Positions 10,696 to 28,787 of a stretch of DNA of 64,000 bases are shown here, piece by piece. The position numbers were made by a program, and so were the translations under genes. The DNA is from Vibrio tapetis subsp. tapetis (lineage in GTDB: Bacteria > Pseudomonadota > Gammaproteobacteria > Enterobacterales > Vibrionaceae): contig NZ_LT960611.1 of assembly GCF_900233005.1 (NCBI RefSeq), forward strand, positions 2,294,001 to 2,358,000. The letters are read 5' to 3'. Every line of letters starts with the position of its first letter. Positions within the stretch are counted from its first letter, which is position 1. The notes beneath the pieces were generated by a model. The model worked only from the letters and a program-made list of their open reading frames with translations, did no database searches and was not told the origin of the DNA.

Positions 10696-12807
10696 TTAAT
10701 CGTAGAAACGTGCATCACTGCCCGCTCTCGTTAATAAGCCATCGCAAGGTGCGAACCTATCGCCGTATTTCTCGGCAAAATTGTTCATGATGTTGACTAA
10801 CTCTTTAGTGCCGATTTGGTCCATGTAACGGAACGGGCCACCTAAGAATGGTGGGAAACCAATACCAAAAATAGCCCCGATGTCGCCATCTCTTGCACTG
10901 CGGATAATCCCCTCATCTAAACAGCGTACCGCCTCGTTCAGCATTGGCAATACACAACGTAGCGCGATGTCTTTTTCTGGCAGTTTCGCTTCTGGCTGAA
11001 GTTTCAATAGCTTATAAACGCTTTTATCCACTTCTTTCTTTTTGCCGTTATAGCTGTAAAAACCTTTGCCTACTTTACGCCCTTTACGGCCATCATTCAG
11101 CAAAACATCAAACACTTCCGGAGCCTTAAATCGCGCCCCTAACTCTTCGACCAAAATTGGCATTATCTTCGCGCCAATATCAACGCCAACTTCATCAAGC
11201 AGCGCTATTGGCCCTACAGGGAAACCGAAATTAAGCAAAGCATTATCAAGTTGCTCGATAGGCTCACCACCTAACAACACTTGCGCAGACTCATTCATGT
11301 AAGGCGCTAAAATTCGGTTGACATAGAAGCCCGCTTTATCCGCCACAACGATGGGGGTCTTACCTTGCTTACGAGCCAATTCCACTGTAGTTGAGATAAC
11401 TTCATCAGAAGTCCCTTCATGTGGAATGACTTCCACCAACGGCATTTTCTCAACCGGGCTAAAGTAGTGCAAACCTATAACGTTTTCGGGCCGTTGCGCT
11501 TCGGCCGCAATTTGATGAATGGGCAAAGAAGACGTATTAGTAGCAAAAATAGTGCGCTCGTTTCCGTATTGCTCTATTTCTTTTACCATGCCCTGCTTTA
11601 ATGCAAGATCTTCAAATACCGCTTCAATCACCATATCTGTATTTTTAAAGGCGGTGTAATCCGTACCACCAGACAACTGGGACATACGATATTGCAGTTC
11701 TGCTTTAGTTAAAATACGGCGCTTTTTCTGCTTACTAAGCAGTTTGTAATTGTAATTCATTGCTCCTAACACACCATCGTTAGAAACATCTTTGATTCGT
11801 ACTGGCACTTTGGCTTTAGAAACAGACACATGACTAATGCCCGCCCCCATAAGGCCACCACCAAGTACACCAACACGCGAAACTAACCGAGGCTTTTCAT
11901 CAGTGCCGTTTTCTTTTTTCATTTCCGTTGTCGCAAAGAAAATAGAACGCAATGCTTTGGATTCGTTACTCATGCACAACACACCAAAACGTTTAGCCTC
12001 GTTTTCTAAACCTTTTTCGATACCGTGTTCTAAACCATAAGCAATAACGTCTAAGATAGCGTCCGCCGCTGGATAATTACCGCGAGTTTTGGCAAGTGTC
12101 TTCTTGCTCGCTTGGTCAAACACAAAATTTCGGCCAAACTTCACACCAGAAAGCAGGCGTTCTTTGGTCGCCAATTTACGCTTTGCCTTATTACCAGAGG
12201 CATACTTCTTGGCTACCTCCAGTAAAATAGATTCAGGTACACAAGCATCAACCACACCCAACTTATTTGCTTTTTTAGCTCTCAACTGCTTACCAGTCAA
12301 AATTAAGTCTAAGCTTGGCAGTAAACCAATTAAGCGAGGCAGCCTTTGTGTACCGCCGGAACCTGGCAGTAAACCGAGCTGAACTTCAGGTAAACCCAAA
12401 CGCGTTTTGTCTGAGTCGCTGCATACACGGTAATCACAAGCCAGTGCAAGCTCTAAGCCACCACCTAAACAAGGGCCATGGATTGCAGAAACCACGGGGA
12501 AAGGCAATGCTTCAAGCTGGTTAAACATTTGTTGACCTTGTGCGGCCAAACCTTGTGCCTCTTCCGCTGTAGTACACGCGTCGAGCATGCGTACATCAGC
12601 CCCCGCAACAAAGTTGTCAGGTTTCAAGGAATGAATGATTAAACCAGATACTTCATGCTTTTTAGCTTCAAGTTCCATCAAGATGGTTTGCATCTCTTCA
12701 GTAAACTGAGCTTGAAGGGTATTCATTTTTTCGCCAGGGACATCAATAGCAAGCCATGCAAGGCCTTGGTCATCAATGGTTAATTGAAATGCGTTTTGAT
12801 TGCTCAT
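10696..12807 (-). CDS. fadJ: Fatty acid oxidation complex alpha subunit FadJ
   Basis: FadJ (703 residues) combines enoyl-CoA hydratase/isomerase and 3-hydroxyacyl-CoA dehydrogenase activities and pairs with the thiolase FadI. The N-terminal crotonase part shows the oxyanion-hole segment [13 protein letters not shown] and the catalytic [20 protein letters not shown]. The Rossmann motif [14 protein letters not shown] (about residue 310) opens the dehydrogenase part. The start MSNQNAFQL and sequence fit FadJ better than FadB. It overlaps the fadI stop by one base, so translation is probably coupled. The minus-strand operon is fadI-fadJ. Confidence 0.95.
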
Positions 12808-14114
12808 TATTCTACCTCCAATACCATTGCTGCACCTAAACCACCAGCAGCACAGGCCGTGTTCAACGCCAGACCACCACCGCGTCTTTTTAGCTCACGC
12901 AATGTTTGGGTCATCATACGTGCGCCAGTCGCAGCAAACGGATGCCCGTAAGCCAAGGAGCCGCCTAACACGTTAAATTTCTCCATGTCGATTTCGCCAA
13001 TCGCCTTATCACGCCCTAATACCTGCTGGGCAAATTCATCACTGGCGAACATTTTCACATTAGCCAGGGTTTGCGCTGCAAACGCTTCGTGCATATCAAT
13101 GAGTGTTAGGTCATCTAATGTAATTCCGGCTCTGTCTAATGCGATAGGCGTTGCATGAGATGGCCCCATTAGCATGTCTTCATGCACATCAATGGCAGAA
13201 AATGCATACGAACGAATATAACCTAATATTTCAAGACCAAGTTCTTTCGCTTTGCCTTCTCTCATCATAAGAACGGCCGCCGCACCATCAGTCAATGGCG
13301 TACTGTTTGCCGCCGTTACACTGCCGTGTTTTCGGTCAAATGCTGGTCGTAACTTAGCGTAACCCTCTACCGTAGAATCGGTACGGATGTTGTTATCCGT
13401 ATCAATCCATTTTTTGTAAGGTTCTGGAAAAGCGGTCATCACTTCATCACGTATCTTCCCATCAGCCCAAGCTTGCGCCGCCAATGTATGAGAACGGTGA
13501 GCTAAAGCATCTTGCTCTTCTCGTGATATACCATGAGTTTTGGCCATTTGCTCCGCCGTTTGCCCCATAGAAATACCCGTAGAATACTCGGCAACAGCAG
13601 GAGGTACAGGCATCAAATCTTTGAAAGACAACTTACTTAAAATAGACAGCTTTTGGCCTGACTTTCGAGCTTTACTCAGAGCCAACAATGAGGAAGCCAG
13701 CTTTTTTGAAACGCCAATAGGTAAAACAGAAGAAGAATCTGCACCACCAGCAATACCCACATCAATCGTACCGGCAATAATGCTCTCTGCTACGTTTGCA
13801 GCCGCTTGGAAGCTCGTCGCACAGGCTCGAGTCACACTATAAGCATCAGTTTTTACGTCCATACCAGTGCCCAAAACAATCTCGCGAGCGATATTTGGTG
13901 CTTCAGGCATTTGCACAACCTGACCAAACACAACTTGGTCGACAATAGCGGGATCAACATCCGCCCGTGTTAGCATTTCACTAACCACCATTTTGCCTAG
14001 ATCAACGGCTGGTACATGACCAAACTCTGTGCTTTGGCGTGCGAATGGAGTACGTAAACCTGCGACGATCGCAATGCGTTCACCCGATCGTGTGGTTAAA
14101 TCCTGTATGCCCAT
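12807..14114 (-). CDS. fadI: 3-ketoacyl-CoA thiolase FadI
   Basis: FadI (435 residues) cleaves 3-ketoacyl-CoA to acetyl-CoA and a shortened acyl-CoA. The nucleophile cysteine lies in [11 protein letters not shown] (about residue 98), the catalytic histidine in [16 protein letters not shown], and the second cysteine in NTACAAGG near the end. The N-terminus [21 protein letters not shown] resembles E. coli FadI. Upstream lies a FadR-like palindrome 17-33 bases before the start, so repression without long-chain acyl-CoA is likely. The gene is the first of the fadI-fadJ operon. Confidence 0.95.
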
Positions 14115-14130: not shown

Positions 14131-14147
14131 AGAGGTCAGACCTGTAT
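14131..14147. promoter_or_regulatory. Candidate FadR operator of fadIJ
   Basis: AGAGGTCAGACCTGTAT contains the palindrome AGGTC-A-GACCT and fits the FadR pattern GGTCnGACC. It sits just before fadI, where repression of beta-oxidation by FadR is expected. Confidence 0.65.
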
Positions 14148-14330: not shown

Positions 14331-14359
14331 AAAAAAAAACCACACATATCTGTGTGGTT
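14331..14359 (-). terminator. Rho-independent terminator of the putative small RNA
   Basis: On the minus strand AACCACACA-GATA-TGTGTGGTT is followed by nine T. It points away from the ECF sigma gene and lies upstream of fadI, so it does not end any annotated gene. Confidence 0.85.
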
Positions 14360-14488
14360 GGAATCGATATATAGCGTATCGCCAAAATTCAAAAATCAGT
14401 TTCCTGATTAGGAGAAAGTAAAGTCAGCCTTCAAAAGGAAGTGTCATCTTGCTCAACATGTCGATAATAAATACCAACGAGATGACAC
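14331..14488 (-). ncRNA. Putative FNR-controlled small RNA (FnrS-like in design)
   Basis: This is a predicted RNA of about 158 nt with no coding frame of note. On the minus strand a TATAGT -10 box and an FNR-like site centred near -41.5 precede a start near 14488. The RNA opens with a perfect 9-bp stem (GTGTCATCT with AGATGACAC, 14488-14441). A pyrimidine-rich stretch complementary to ribosome sites (ACTTTCTCCT) follows, then a second stem AATCAG-GAAA-CTGATT (14409-14394). It ends in a 9-bp terminator stem with nine U. No gene on this strand would need that terminator. The segment CACTTCCTTTTGAA also resembles part of enterobacterial FnrS. The identity is inference from layout. Confidence 0.6.
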
Positions 14489-14492
14489 CTGT

Positions 14493-14533
14493 ACTATAGC
14501 GCTTTCACATTGCTAGAAATTGAACTAGATCAA
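14493..14533 (-). promoter_or_regulatory. FNR-type class II promoter of the putative small RNA
   Basis: TTGATCTAGTTCAA (minus strand, 14533-14520) matches the FNR consensus TTGATnnnnATCAA at nine of ten positions. The -10 box TATAGT is at 14498-14493. The site centre lies about 41.5 bp from a start at 14485-14488, the usual class II spacing, and there is no good -35 box. Confidence 0.6.
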
Positions 14534-14608
14534 TTTATTGGTGGTTTTACCCATACTGCCGCAAGGATAAGCTTTTCTCGTTAATCGCTCGAGAAAATGG
14601 AGCCGCAT

Positions 14609-15172
14609 GTGTCAATACTAAATTTATTTGGAAAGAAAAAGCCACAGAGCCCGGTCAACTCTGATATGGACAAACAAAAACGATACGAAGCCCTCGTGCG
14701 GGCTTACCATCGCGACCTTTATCGCTATGCATATTGGTTATGCAAAGATGGACATATAGCTGAAGACTTAGTGCAAGAAACCTGCTTAAGAGCTTGGAAA
14801 GCAATAGACAGCTTACAAGATGAAAAAGCAGCCAAGTCTTGGTTGATCACCATATTGCGCCGCGAAAACGCACGAAGATTTGAAAGGAAACAGTTAGAAT
14901 TAGTCGATATTGACGATCATGGTGCGGAAGCAAAAACCAGTGACGATCCGAAACATCAACAAGAATGGCTACAAAATCAAATCATGAAGCTGGATATTGA
15001 CTATCGTGAGCCACTGTTTCTGCAAGTTATTGGTGGTTTCAGCGGTGAAGAGATCGGCGATATATTAGATCTTAATAAAAATACGGTGATGACTCGACTT
15101 TTCCGAGCGAGAAATCAACTCAAAGACATGTTAGATGAATCTGATCTAGATAAGGGGGTACATAATGGATGA
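14609..15172 (+). CDS. ECF-type sigma-70 family RNA polymerase sigma factor
   Basis: This short (about 187 residues) sigma factor has region 2 (YEALVRAYHRDLYRYAYWLCKD...AEDLVQETCLRAWKAI) and region 4 (REPLFLQVIGGFSGEEIGDILDLNKNTVMTRLFRARNQLK) but no region 1 or 3, as in the RpoE/ECF group. I chose GTG 14609 because GGAG lies six bases before it; an in-frame ATG at 14597 exists but has poor spacing. It overlaps the next gene, encoding a DUF3379 protein with one membrane segment, by 8 bp. That arrangement is typical of a sigma/anti-sigma pair. Its targets are unknown; the setting next to fad genes hints at envelope or lipid stress. Confidence 0.85.
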   Translation: MSILNLFGKKKPQSPVNSDMDKQKRYEALVRAYHRDLYRYAYWLCKDGHIAEDLVQETCLRAWKAIDSLQDEKAAKSWLITILRRENARRFERKQLELVDIDDHGAEAKTSDDPKHQQEWLQNQIMKLDIDYREPLFLQVIGGFSGEEIGDILDLNKNTVMTRLFRARNQLKDMLDESDLDKGVHNG

Positions 15173-15893
15173 TTTAGAACTTCGCCGTCGAATTATGTCC
15201 GATCCCAAAAACAAGGAATCTGATAGCGAACTTACAAGAGAACAATGTGAGTTAAACGCTAAGTTTATCGATGACATTCTAAAGCTTGATAATCAAATCG
15301 AGCAAGCAATGAAAGTTGATGTCCCAGATGGCCTTGCGGATCGGATTCTATTTAATCAAAGTGCTGAGATTGAAGAGACCCCATTCACACGCTCTGTAAT
15401 GAAACGAACGATGGCACTGGCTGCCTCTGTCGCATTTGCCGCTGGGTTGTTGGTAGGGCAAATAAATTGGACACCACTTGTTATTAGCCCTGCTCATGCT
15501 TCTTTAGCCGATACCGCAATGCAGCATGTTGTTGACGAATCACCGTTTATAAACCCGTTAGATGAGAAAGTATCTTCTAAGCAAATCAACATGAAGTTAA
15601 AACCTTTTGATTTTGCATTTACTGATAACTTTCCGTACCAAGTGTATTACTTAAATCACTGTGGTTTTGGTGATTCGAACGCTATGCACATGGTATTCCA
15701 AGGTGAAAAAGGACGAGTGACGATGTTCGTTACGCGTGTTAATAGCGACTCAACTCAGTCTTTCCAGAAAAATGGCATGAACGGTACAATTACTCCTCTT
15801 GAAGGGGCCAGTATGGTACTCGTAGGCGAGGCAGGTGAAGATGTCGCCAAAATCGCCGAAGTACTGATGCCAATCATCAAACCAATCGGTTAA
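15165..15893 (+). CDS. DUF3379-family membrane protein, probable anti-sigma partner
   Basis: This 242-residue protein has a charged cytosolic N-terminus of about 80 residues, one transmembrane segment (MALAASVAFAAGLLVGQINW, about 85-104) and an extracytoplasmic domain (DNFPYQVYYLNHCGFGDSNAMHMVFQ...). It matches the DUF3379 family that I know as the usual neighbour of such ECF factors. The start ATG overlaps the sigma gene stop. A role in holding the sigma factor at the membrane is inferred from this layout. A single Cys in LNHCGFG could be functional. A terminator follows directly. Confidence 0.8.
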   Translation: MDDLELRRRIMSDPKNKESDSELTREQCELNAKFIDDILKLDNQIEQAMKVDVPDGLADRILFNQSAEIEETPFTRSVMKRTMALAASVAFAAGLLVGQINWTPLVISPAHASLADTAMQHVVDESPFINPLDEKVSSKQINMKLKPFDFAFTDNFPYQVYYLNHCGFGDSNAMHMVFQGEKGRVTMFVTRVNSDSTQSFQKNGMNGTITPLEGASMVLVGEAGEDVAKIAEVLMPIIKPIG

Positions 15894-28018: not shown

Positions 28019-28787
28019 CGAAAGACAACCTCTCGAGATAGATTAAAAGCTGTTTATAAGCGAATACGCCACGGCTACCAGGAGCAAAATACGACGCTGG
28101 TAAGTGCTTTAAGCTGGCATCACGAAATTTAGTATCGATAGGAACAGCAGATGGCCACACCTGATTAGGGTAACCTTTCTTTAACTGTGTTAGCGTCTGA
28201 AGCGAAGCATTCGTTCGCTTATCATACATAGTTGGCACTATCGTTGTTTTAAACGGAGACGTTCGTGATTTCTGCATGATCGCTAAAGTTCGAACCATTC
28301 GCTCAAGACCTTTCATGGCCAAGAATTCGGTTTGAACTGGTATCAAAATTCGATCACTCGCAGCCAATGCATTCACCATCATTACCCCTAAAATTGGCGG
28401 GCAATCAATCAATACATAATCGTATTTTTCAGATATTGCAGTCAGAGCCTTATTTAATATCAGCCCCATACCACTTCGGTTACCCATCACGCGATCAAGT
28501 GTCGCTAACGACATATGAGCAGGAATGATGTCGATATTTTCAATATCGGTACCCAAAATTAACGAACTCACGCTACTTTCATCAATCTGCCTCAATTGAA
28601 ACAGATCAAATAAGCTGCAAGGTACTTCGTCAGAGTCATATCCGAGATAAGTAGTAAGAGACGCATGGGGGTCGGTATCAACCAATAACACTCGTTTACC
28701 ACGCAGACTTAACAACCCCGCCAGTGTTACTGTCGTGGTTGTTTTGCCTACACCGCCCTTTTGGTTAGCGACACTCCAAACTATCAC
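28011..28787 (-). CDS. parC: ParA-like ATPase ParC, polar localisation of chemotaxis proteins
   Basis: This 258-residue deviant-Walker ATPase (KGGVGKTTTTVTLAG at about residues 10-24; VLLVDTDPHASLTTYLG; YVLIDCPPILGVMMVNAL) belongs to the ParA/MinD class. Despite its annotation history as a chromosome-partition protein, its place between cheB and parP marks it as ParC, which recruits chemotaxis arrays to the old pole in vibrios. No parB or parS sequence is next to it. Confidence 0.92.
   Translation of the reverse strand: MIVWSVANQKGGVGKTTTTVTLAGLLSLRGKRVLLVDTDPHASLTTYLGYDSDEVPCSLFDLFQLRQIDESSVSSLILGTDIENIDIIPAHMSLATLDRVMGNRSGMGLILNKALTAISEKYDYVLIDCPPILGVMMVNALAASDRILIPVQTEFLAMKGLERMVRTLAIMQKSRTSPFKTTIVPTMYDKRTNASLQTLTQLKKGYPNQVWPSAVPIDTKFRDASLKHLPASYFAPGSRGVFAYKQLLIYLERLSFDD

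Follow-up and report, generated by a model that had tools for sequence, protein, structure and literature searches.

An orthologue of Vibrio cholerae Vcr043 in Vibrio tapetis and most other Vibrionaceae examined is preceded by a conserved FNR-type site and is likely controlled by FNR

On the minus strand between fadI and an ECF sigma factor gene, Vibrio tapetis subsp. tapetis carries an element (positions 14331-14533 of the 64,000-nt stretch analysed here as a whole, hereafter the window) made of an FNR-type site, a -10 box, a structured RNA of ~158 nt and an intrinsic terminator. By position, strand and size, this RNA is the orthologue of V. cholerae Vcr043 and is therefore an already known RNA. 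Judged by sequence comparison, most of the Vibrionaceae examined share this RNA with its structure and its terminator, and the predicted FNR-type site, at class II distance, belongs to it. What is new here is not the RNA but its likely control by FNR across the Vibrionaceae. The best explanation, which we consider probable, is a trans-acting, Hfq-associated RNA that would be activated by FNR at low oxygen and would block ribosome-binding sites such as those of sdhC and grxA.

The locus and its identity with Vcr043

The features of the locus are the following (window coordinates).

12807..14114, minus strand: fadI (thiolase; Pfam Thiolase_N and Thiolase_C), the gene that follows the RNA on its strand
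14134..14142, minus strand: motif GGTCTGACC, which we liken to a FadR operator, just upstream of fadI
14331..14359, minus strand: intrinsic terminator, 9-bp stem (14359-14338) and nine T (14339-14331)
14331..14488, minus strand: small RNA, orthologue of Vcr043, ~158 nt predicted, 5' end at about 14485-14488
14394..14409, minus strand: GAAA-capped stem AATCAG/CTGATT, helix 3 of the covariation analysis
14410..14419, minus strand: anti-Shine-Dalgarno tract ACTTTCTCCT, part of the predicted duplexes with the sdhC, grxA and grcA start regions
14411..14442, minus strand: near-invariant core ACTTCCTTTTGAAGGCTGACTTTACTTTCTCC, mostly unpaired in the centroid fold, proposed pairing region
14433..14442, minus strand: decamer ACTTCCTTTT, common to nucleotides 50-59 of Escherichia coli FnrS
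14441..14488, minus strand: 5' stem-loop, whose lower helix pairs 14480-14488 with 14441-14449 and whose upper helix pairs about 14472-14478 with 14460-14466
14493..14498, minus strand: -10 box TATAGT, 21 nt after the FNR-type site
14520..14533, minus strand: FNR-type site TTGATCTAGTTCAA, centre 14526.5
14597..15172, plus strand: ECF sigma factor gene (Pfam Sigma70_r2 and Sigma70_r4_2), divergent from the RNA
15165..15893, plus strand: DUF3379 protein gene, beside the ECF gene

The strand of the RNA also carries fadJ, downstream with fadI, and the divergent side carries a FadL-type gene in addition to the ECF and DUF3379 genes; the DUF3379 protein may act as anti-sigma partner to the ECF factor. 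The FadR-like motif is the sole match in the window, where 0.31 would be expected, and suggests a separate promoter for fadI.

The earlier note, made from the sequence alone, had described most of this architecture and its description stands: a perfect 9-bp stem (GTGTCATCT/AGATGACAC, 14488-14480 with 14449-14441) at the 5' end, a second stem capped by GAAA, a pyrimidine tract complementary to Shine-Dalgarno sequences, a 9-bp terminator with nine U (the first two of which pair in the stem) and divergence from an ECF sigma gene. It had also proposed a nine-out-of-ten match to the FNR consensus, TTGAT-N4-ATCAA, and this is what is found, the site departing from it by TTCAA in place of ATCAA. The TATAGT box likewise lies where the note had put it, but its class II spacing holds less exactly: a start at 14488 places the FNR-type site at -38.5, whereas the exact class II distance of -41.5 requires a start near 14485, so that the 5' end of the RNA is uncertain by ~3 nt. 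The RNA folds with a z-score of -4.07, none of 200 shuffled sequences being as stable.

The V. cholerae gene VC1046 is presumably fadI. In the excerpts of PMC8545128 drawn on here, Vcr043 is an RNA of ~160 nt located between VC1046 and the sigma-factor gene VC1045, which points in the opposite direction; transcription of VC1045 and of Vcr043 starts at sites 25 bp apart, from promoters that partly overlap. The window RNA has the same locus, the same divergent orientation and the same size, being a terminated RNA of ~160 nt in the intergenic region between the sigma gene, from which it diverges, and the counterpart of VC1046. Furthermore, V. mimicus (L096), used as a stand-in for the V. cholerae sequence, displays the order fadI / RNA / ECF / DUF3379 / FadL. 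One described property of Vcr043, the generation of several stable RNA species through processing by RNase E (PMC7398697, in part), is not of a kind visible from the window sequence. The earlier note had presented the small RNA as unannotated, a statement that its identity with Vcr043 overturns.

As far as the available parts of these papers go, Vcr043 was still called uncharacterized in 2022, is present in Hfq RIL-seq data and has four validated targets, among which grxA, vc0036 and sdhC have electron-transport roles (PMC9732341). It also forms chimeras with rpoS, its overexpression raises rpoS-lacZ about 3-fold, and Northern blots from LB cultures display similar levels in all growth phases (excerpts of PMC8545128). 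The portions of PMC5089854 that were available list it among 14 V. cholerae sRNAs possibly serving as 5' UTRs and take the dependence of its stability on Hfq to indicate trans action. In the openly licensed PMC literature, as far as its accessible text goes, no link of Vcr043 to FNR or oxygen was found.

Conservation of the RNA and of its promoter

Of 197 Vibrionaceae genomes searched at the DNA level (BLAST), 163 gave a match to the RNA. Among the named loci compared, the closest to the window genome is that of Vibrio tapetis (L031), its ECF protein being 98% identical. Among the 80 named Vibrio loci kept from the search with the ECF protein, 78 carry an FNR-type site followed by TATAGT or TATATT at 21 nt (18-24 allowed), the two exceptions being L095, devoid of both promoter and core, and L108, cut by the end of its contig. 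In the alignment of the window with these 78 loci, the spacing is 21 in all 79 rows (again with 18-24 allowed), TTGATnnnnTTCAA is exact in 75, and mean identity reaches 99.4% over the ten FNR positions and 98.1% over the -10 box, with 60.2% over the 21-nt spacer. RNA length ranges from 148 to 172 nt in 78 of the 79 sequences, the other (L063, 125 nt) being an extract cut early.

The predicted structure is conserved as well. In 44 sequences less than 95% identical to each other (L063 was dropped), 13 of 30 base pairs changed on both sides and 98.3% of the cells are paired, values of which neither is reached by any of 500 shuffles, keeping in mind that related sequences can exceed shuffles without any structure. 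When the partners are slid by 1-3 columns, at most 50.6% of the cells are paired and at most five pairs change on both sides. Most of the covariation lies in the 5' stem-loop (helices 1 and 2, both-side changes in 11 of 15 pairs); helix 3 has 98.0% of its cells paired and one of seven pairs changed on both sides, and the terminator stem, helix 4 of this analysis, is strongly conserved.

Conservation extends beyond the named loci. Twelve divergent loci were chosen from the DNA search, 11 in six other genera and one in a divergent g1 genome, and all of them keep the core, an FNR-type site and a -10 box at 21 nt, with a weaker box (TAATAT, same spacing) in L155 and one further mismatch in the FNR-type site of L152 and L162. 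The stem pairing and the FNR site, whose conservation the earlier note had proposed to examine, are both kept. Of the 34 genomes without BLAST match, 20 were tested with the Vibrio model built here: 17 gave no match at E 0.01, two (G001, G074) gave low scores without core or FNR site, and the last one, G003, from a seventh other genus, has a true copy with a drifted body (31.5 bits) but an intact TTGATCTGCTTCAA-N21-TATAAT. The RNA is therefore absent, by BLAST and model, from at least 17 of the 197 Vibrionaceae genomes. The genomes that lack it include those of small-genome Vibrio.

At the scale of the order, the search of 394 genomes gave a match at E 1 or better in 88, 30 of which are strong (E <1e-26) and all in family f1. 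Eight of the many weak places (L144-L151) were considered as remote homologues outside the Vibrionaceae and rejected, since six are devoid of the core and two only match it with seven errors; none of these places is a credible homologue.

A pattern joining the FNR site to the -10 box, written after the site had been seen and relaxed to a spacing of 18-24 and to A or T at the departing position, has two matches in the window versus 0.07 expected; with the spacing fixed at 21, it has five in the 5.73-Mb genome and none in the reversed control. The other four genome matches were not counted as support because of their locations: two are antisense, one at a murG/murC junction and one in a lacZ-like gene (names that we assume from the translations), the third is inside a UspA-like gene, and the fourth is at the grcA FNR site in the wrong direction. 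The second match in the window (28570-28609, minus strand, TTGATCTGTTTCAA, spacing 20, TAGCGT), seemingly inside a ParA-like frame, is probably due to chance. The genome encodes FNR itself, with 511 bits against a family cut-off of 228, and two further, weaker members of the Crp/Fnr family.

The sequence TATAGTA/TACTATA (window 14492-14498) is nearly self-complementary, and TATAGTA is found in 63 of the 79 rows. The divergent ECF promoter may therefore share its -10 element with the promoter of the RNA.

Likeness to FnrS and predicted targets

The earlier note had likened the RNA to FnrS of enterobacteria; the likeness of layout and a short shared segment stand, whereas membership of the fnrS family does not. 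Like E. coli FnrS (RF01796; L114:1630-1751), the window RNA displays an upstream FNR-type site, a 5' stem, an unpaired pyrimidine-rich region, a terminator and ACTTCCTTTT. Unlike it, it has another 5' stem, another 3' half and other neighbours, fadI and ECF instead of zntB and dbpA. The Rfam covariance model RF01796 (threshold 60 bits) does not match the window RNA, although it detected the E. coli positive control; elsewhere in the same genome (G000, C2) it gives 26.7 bits only, and it has three weak matches in other genera. In the reverse direction, the Vibrio model does not match E. coli fnrS (L114), and among six of the nine fnrS-type loci searched only L165 scored (15.3 bits, E 0.016). 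Whole-body alignment to FnrS is not significant, 256 of 3000 shuffles being as good. These three comparisons speak against membership of the fnrS family, which we reject.

The sole segment shared with FnrS, ACUUCCUUUU, lies within the mutationally defined pairing region of FnrS. The identity between the invariant core and FnrS spans 10 nt (ACTTCCTTTT), a length reached by 20 of 5000 shuffles. According to the available excerpt of PMC8595263, mutants fnrS-I and fnrS-II affect positions 57-59 and 47-49, respectively; the decamer, at 50-59, overlaps the former and adjoins the latter. As the available part of PMC4114697 places the gain of FnrS in Enterobacteriales, convergence is favoured. The RNA would work by analogy with enterobacterial FnrS, without a demonstrable common family. 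Other lineages are likewise described as having an RNA linked to oxygen limitation, namely the FNR-controlled sRNA of Neisseria (Fantappie 2011) and the NarXL-dependent PaiI of Pseudomonas aeruginosa, both compared here by their partial descriptions only.

In the proposed mechanism, falling oxygen would lead FNR to bind its site and activate the RNA promoter; the core ACUUCCUUUUGAAGGCUGACUUUACUUUCUCC would then pair, with Hfq, at the ribosome-binding sites of genes for aerobic respiration and redox functions (sdhC, grxA), and this pairing would lower their translation. In a ranking by duplex energy of 405 start regions, taken from the window and 20 genome stretches (two chosen for sdhC and grxA, one for fnr), sdhC is eighth, with -19.5 kcal/mol versus a mean of -13.1 (sd 2.9); grxA was missed by the crude gene calling and is not among the 405. 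The predicted sdhC duplex joins AAGGAGCUGAGUGAGCAAGCCC, which includes the Shine-Dalgarno sequence and the GUG start, to AGGCUGACUUUACUUUCUCCUA of the RNA.

Measured against 100 shuffled RNAs, sdhC pairing has z-scores of -1.7 to -2.0 in all five g1 genomes with the RNA, and grxA pairing has z-scores of -1.9 to -3.0 in the same number (at a different place in L219); in the one measured g1 genome without the RNA, the values are -0.4 and +1.0, respectively. Across all genera, z averages -0.85 for sdhC (n=30), against -0.55 for grxA (n=29). Outside g1, pairing does not separate the genomes with the RNA from those without: genera lacking it have sdhC scores like those of the others, and grxA pairing is absent (z +0.3 to +1.1) from four of five g11 genomes that possess the RNA. 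These results are in partial agreement with the published targets and give no independent proof of them.

A further candidate target is grcA (G000, L289:1520-1660). An FNR site, TTGATCTAAATCAA, precedes this gene, and complementarity between the grcA ribosome-binding site and the 3' tract of the RNA extends over 11 nt here, 14 nt in all six g11 genomes, but only 7 nt (four genomes) or 9 nt (one) in other Vibrio genomes with the RNA; a complement of at least 10 nt to the RNA occurs in four of the 405 sampled start regions. It is possible that grcA and the RNA form a feed-forward loop. Within the window, a frame at about 24925 on the minus strand, which we take to encode a CcmB-like membrane protein, has at its start GATTAGGAGA, a 10-nt complement of the RNA.

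Alternative readings and meaning for the Vibrionaceae

In E. coli, fadIJ serve anaerobic beta-oxidation. In all 77 named loci showing both fadI and the RNA, fadI follows the RNA in the same orientation, and this holds for each of the 13 divergent loci, even without ECF nearby. This constant place, combined with the role of fadIJ in E. coli, keeps alive another reading, in which the RNA acts in cis as the leader of fadIJ: transcription from the FNR-type promoter would mostly terminate, read-through would provide fadIJ expression at low oxygen, and the short RNA would be a by-product or a second output. Such a leader, which is compatible with the trans-acting RNA preferred here, agrees with the listing of Vcr043 among possible 5' UTR sRNAs (PMC5089854, in part). 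We nevertheless judge it unlikely: between 127 and 869 nt separate the RNA from fadI, depending on the locus, conservation of the terminator is strong, a FadR-like motif stands before fadI itself in the window (although an exact motif lies within 700 nt in only 15 of the 78 named loci), VC1046 is CRP-responsive and has its own predicted CRP site, and excerpts on Vcr043 describe Hfq-dependent stability (PMC5089854) and validated trans targets (PMC9732341). In a further reading, the RNA would mainly be an mRNA for a short peptide encoded in the core (LSKMTLPFEG-like frame, window 14411-14461). The frame, which ends with GGC TGA, is open in 75 of 79 sequences of the Vibrio set (three lack a start, one lacks GGCTGA). 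However, its start codon varies, no Shine-Dalgarno sequence was noticed for it, third codon positions of the core are as invariant as the rest, and in other genera the frame is broken by insertions of one base; a main role as mRNA, rejected on the variable start, the third-position invariance and these insertions, is very improbable.

The identity of the regulator has to be weighed in the same way. CRP recognizes TGTGA-N6-TCACA, a palindrome related to that of FNR, and the genome has the two other Crp/Fnr-family genes, so the promoter could be run by CRP or another protein of this family. The site, however, fits FNR at nine positions out of ten and CRP at seven out of ten, without the first G of TGTGA, and TTGATnnnnTTCAA is exact in nearly all aligned loci; we regard control by CRP or another such protein as distinctly unlikely, even though the presence of Vcr043 in LB at all growth phases (PMC8545128, in part) would suit it. 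It is hardly more credible than the peptide that the FNR site serves the divergent ECF gene and precedes the RNA by accident. The excerpted overlap of the VC1045 and Vcr043 promoters (PMC8545128) would favour such a role, but the site and its 21-nt spacing are kept in six of six loci without an ECF match within ~1.4 kb. These six (L014, L024, L158, L161, L162, L163), in which fadI, the RNA and the FNR site all remain, are those with enough flank among 42 loci searched, L016 being left out as too short. FNR could still affect the ECF gene as well. With 99% conservation of the FNR site against 60% for the adjoining spacer, and with the site kept where no ECF gene is near, the RNA itself is likely FNR-controlled.

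Several observations count against activation by FNR of a trans-acting RNA as set out above: the TTCAA half-site, the two additional Crp/Fnr-family genes, the loss of the RNA from some genomes, and the activation of rpoS, which is not obviously an anaerobic function. Moreover, as Vcr043 is visible in LB at all growth phases in the accessible text of PMC8545128, the RNA is not strictly anaerobic.

The novelty is limited to the regulator of the RNA, its distribution in the Vibrionaceae and the seed held in common with FnrS. A wider idea, which we put forward only tentatively, is that Vibrionaceae and Enterobacteriaceae each use an FNR-driven RNA with a ACUUCCUUUU seed and otherwise unrelated bodies, by convergence or extreme divergence, and that the Vibrionaceae RNA is in addition fixed before fadIJ, so that a single FNR promoter could both turn off aerobic respiration through the trans-acting RNA and supply anaerobic fatty-acid oxidation through read-through; this is possible, if doubtful. 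The conserved promoter site suggests that the RNA would be turned on when oxygen runs out and that oxygen-using metabolism would then be turned down. If true, conserved FNR control would explain the electron-transport targets of Vcr043 and would provide the Vibrionaceae with an FnrS-like arm of their oxygen response.
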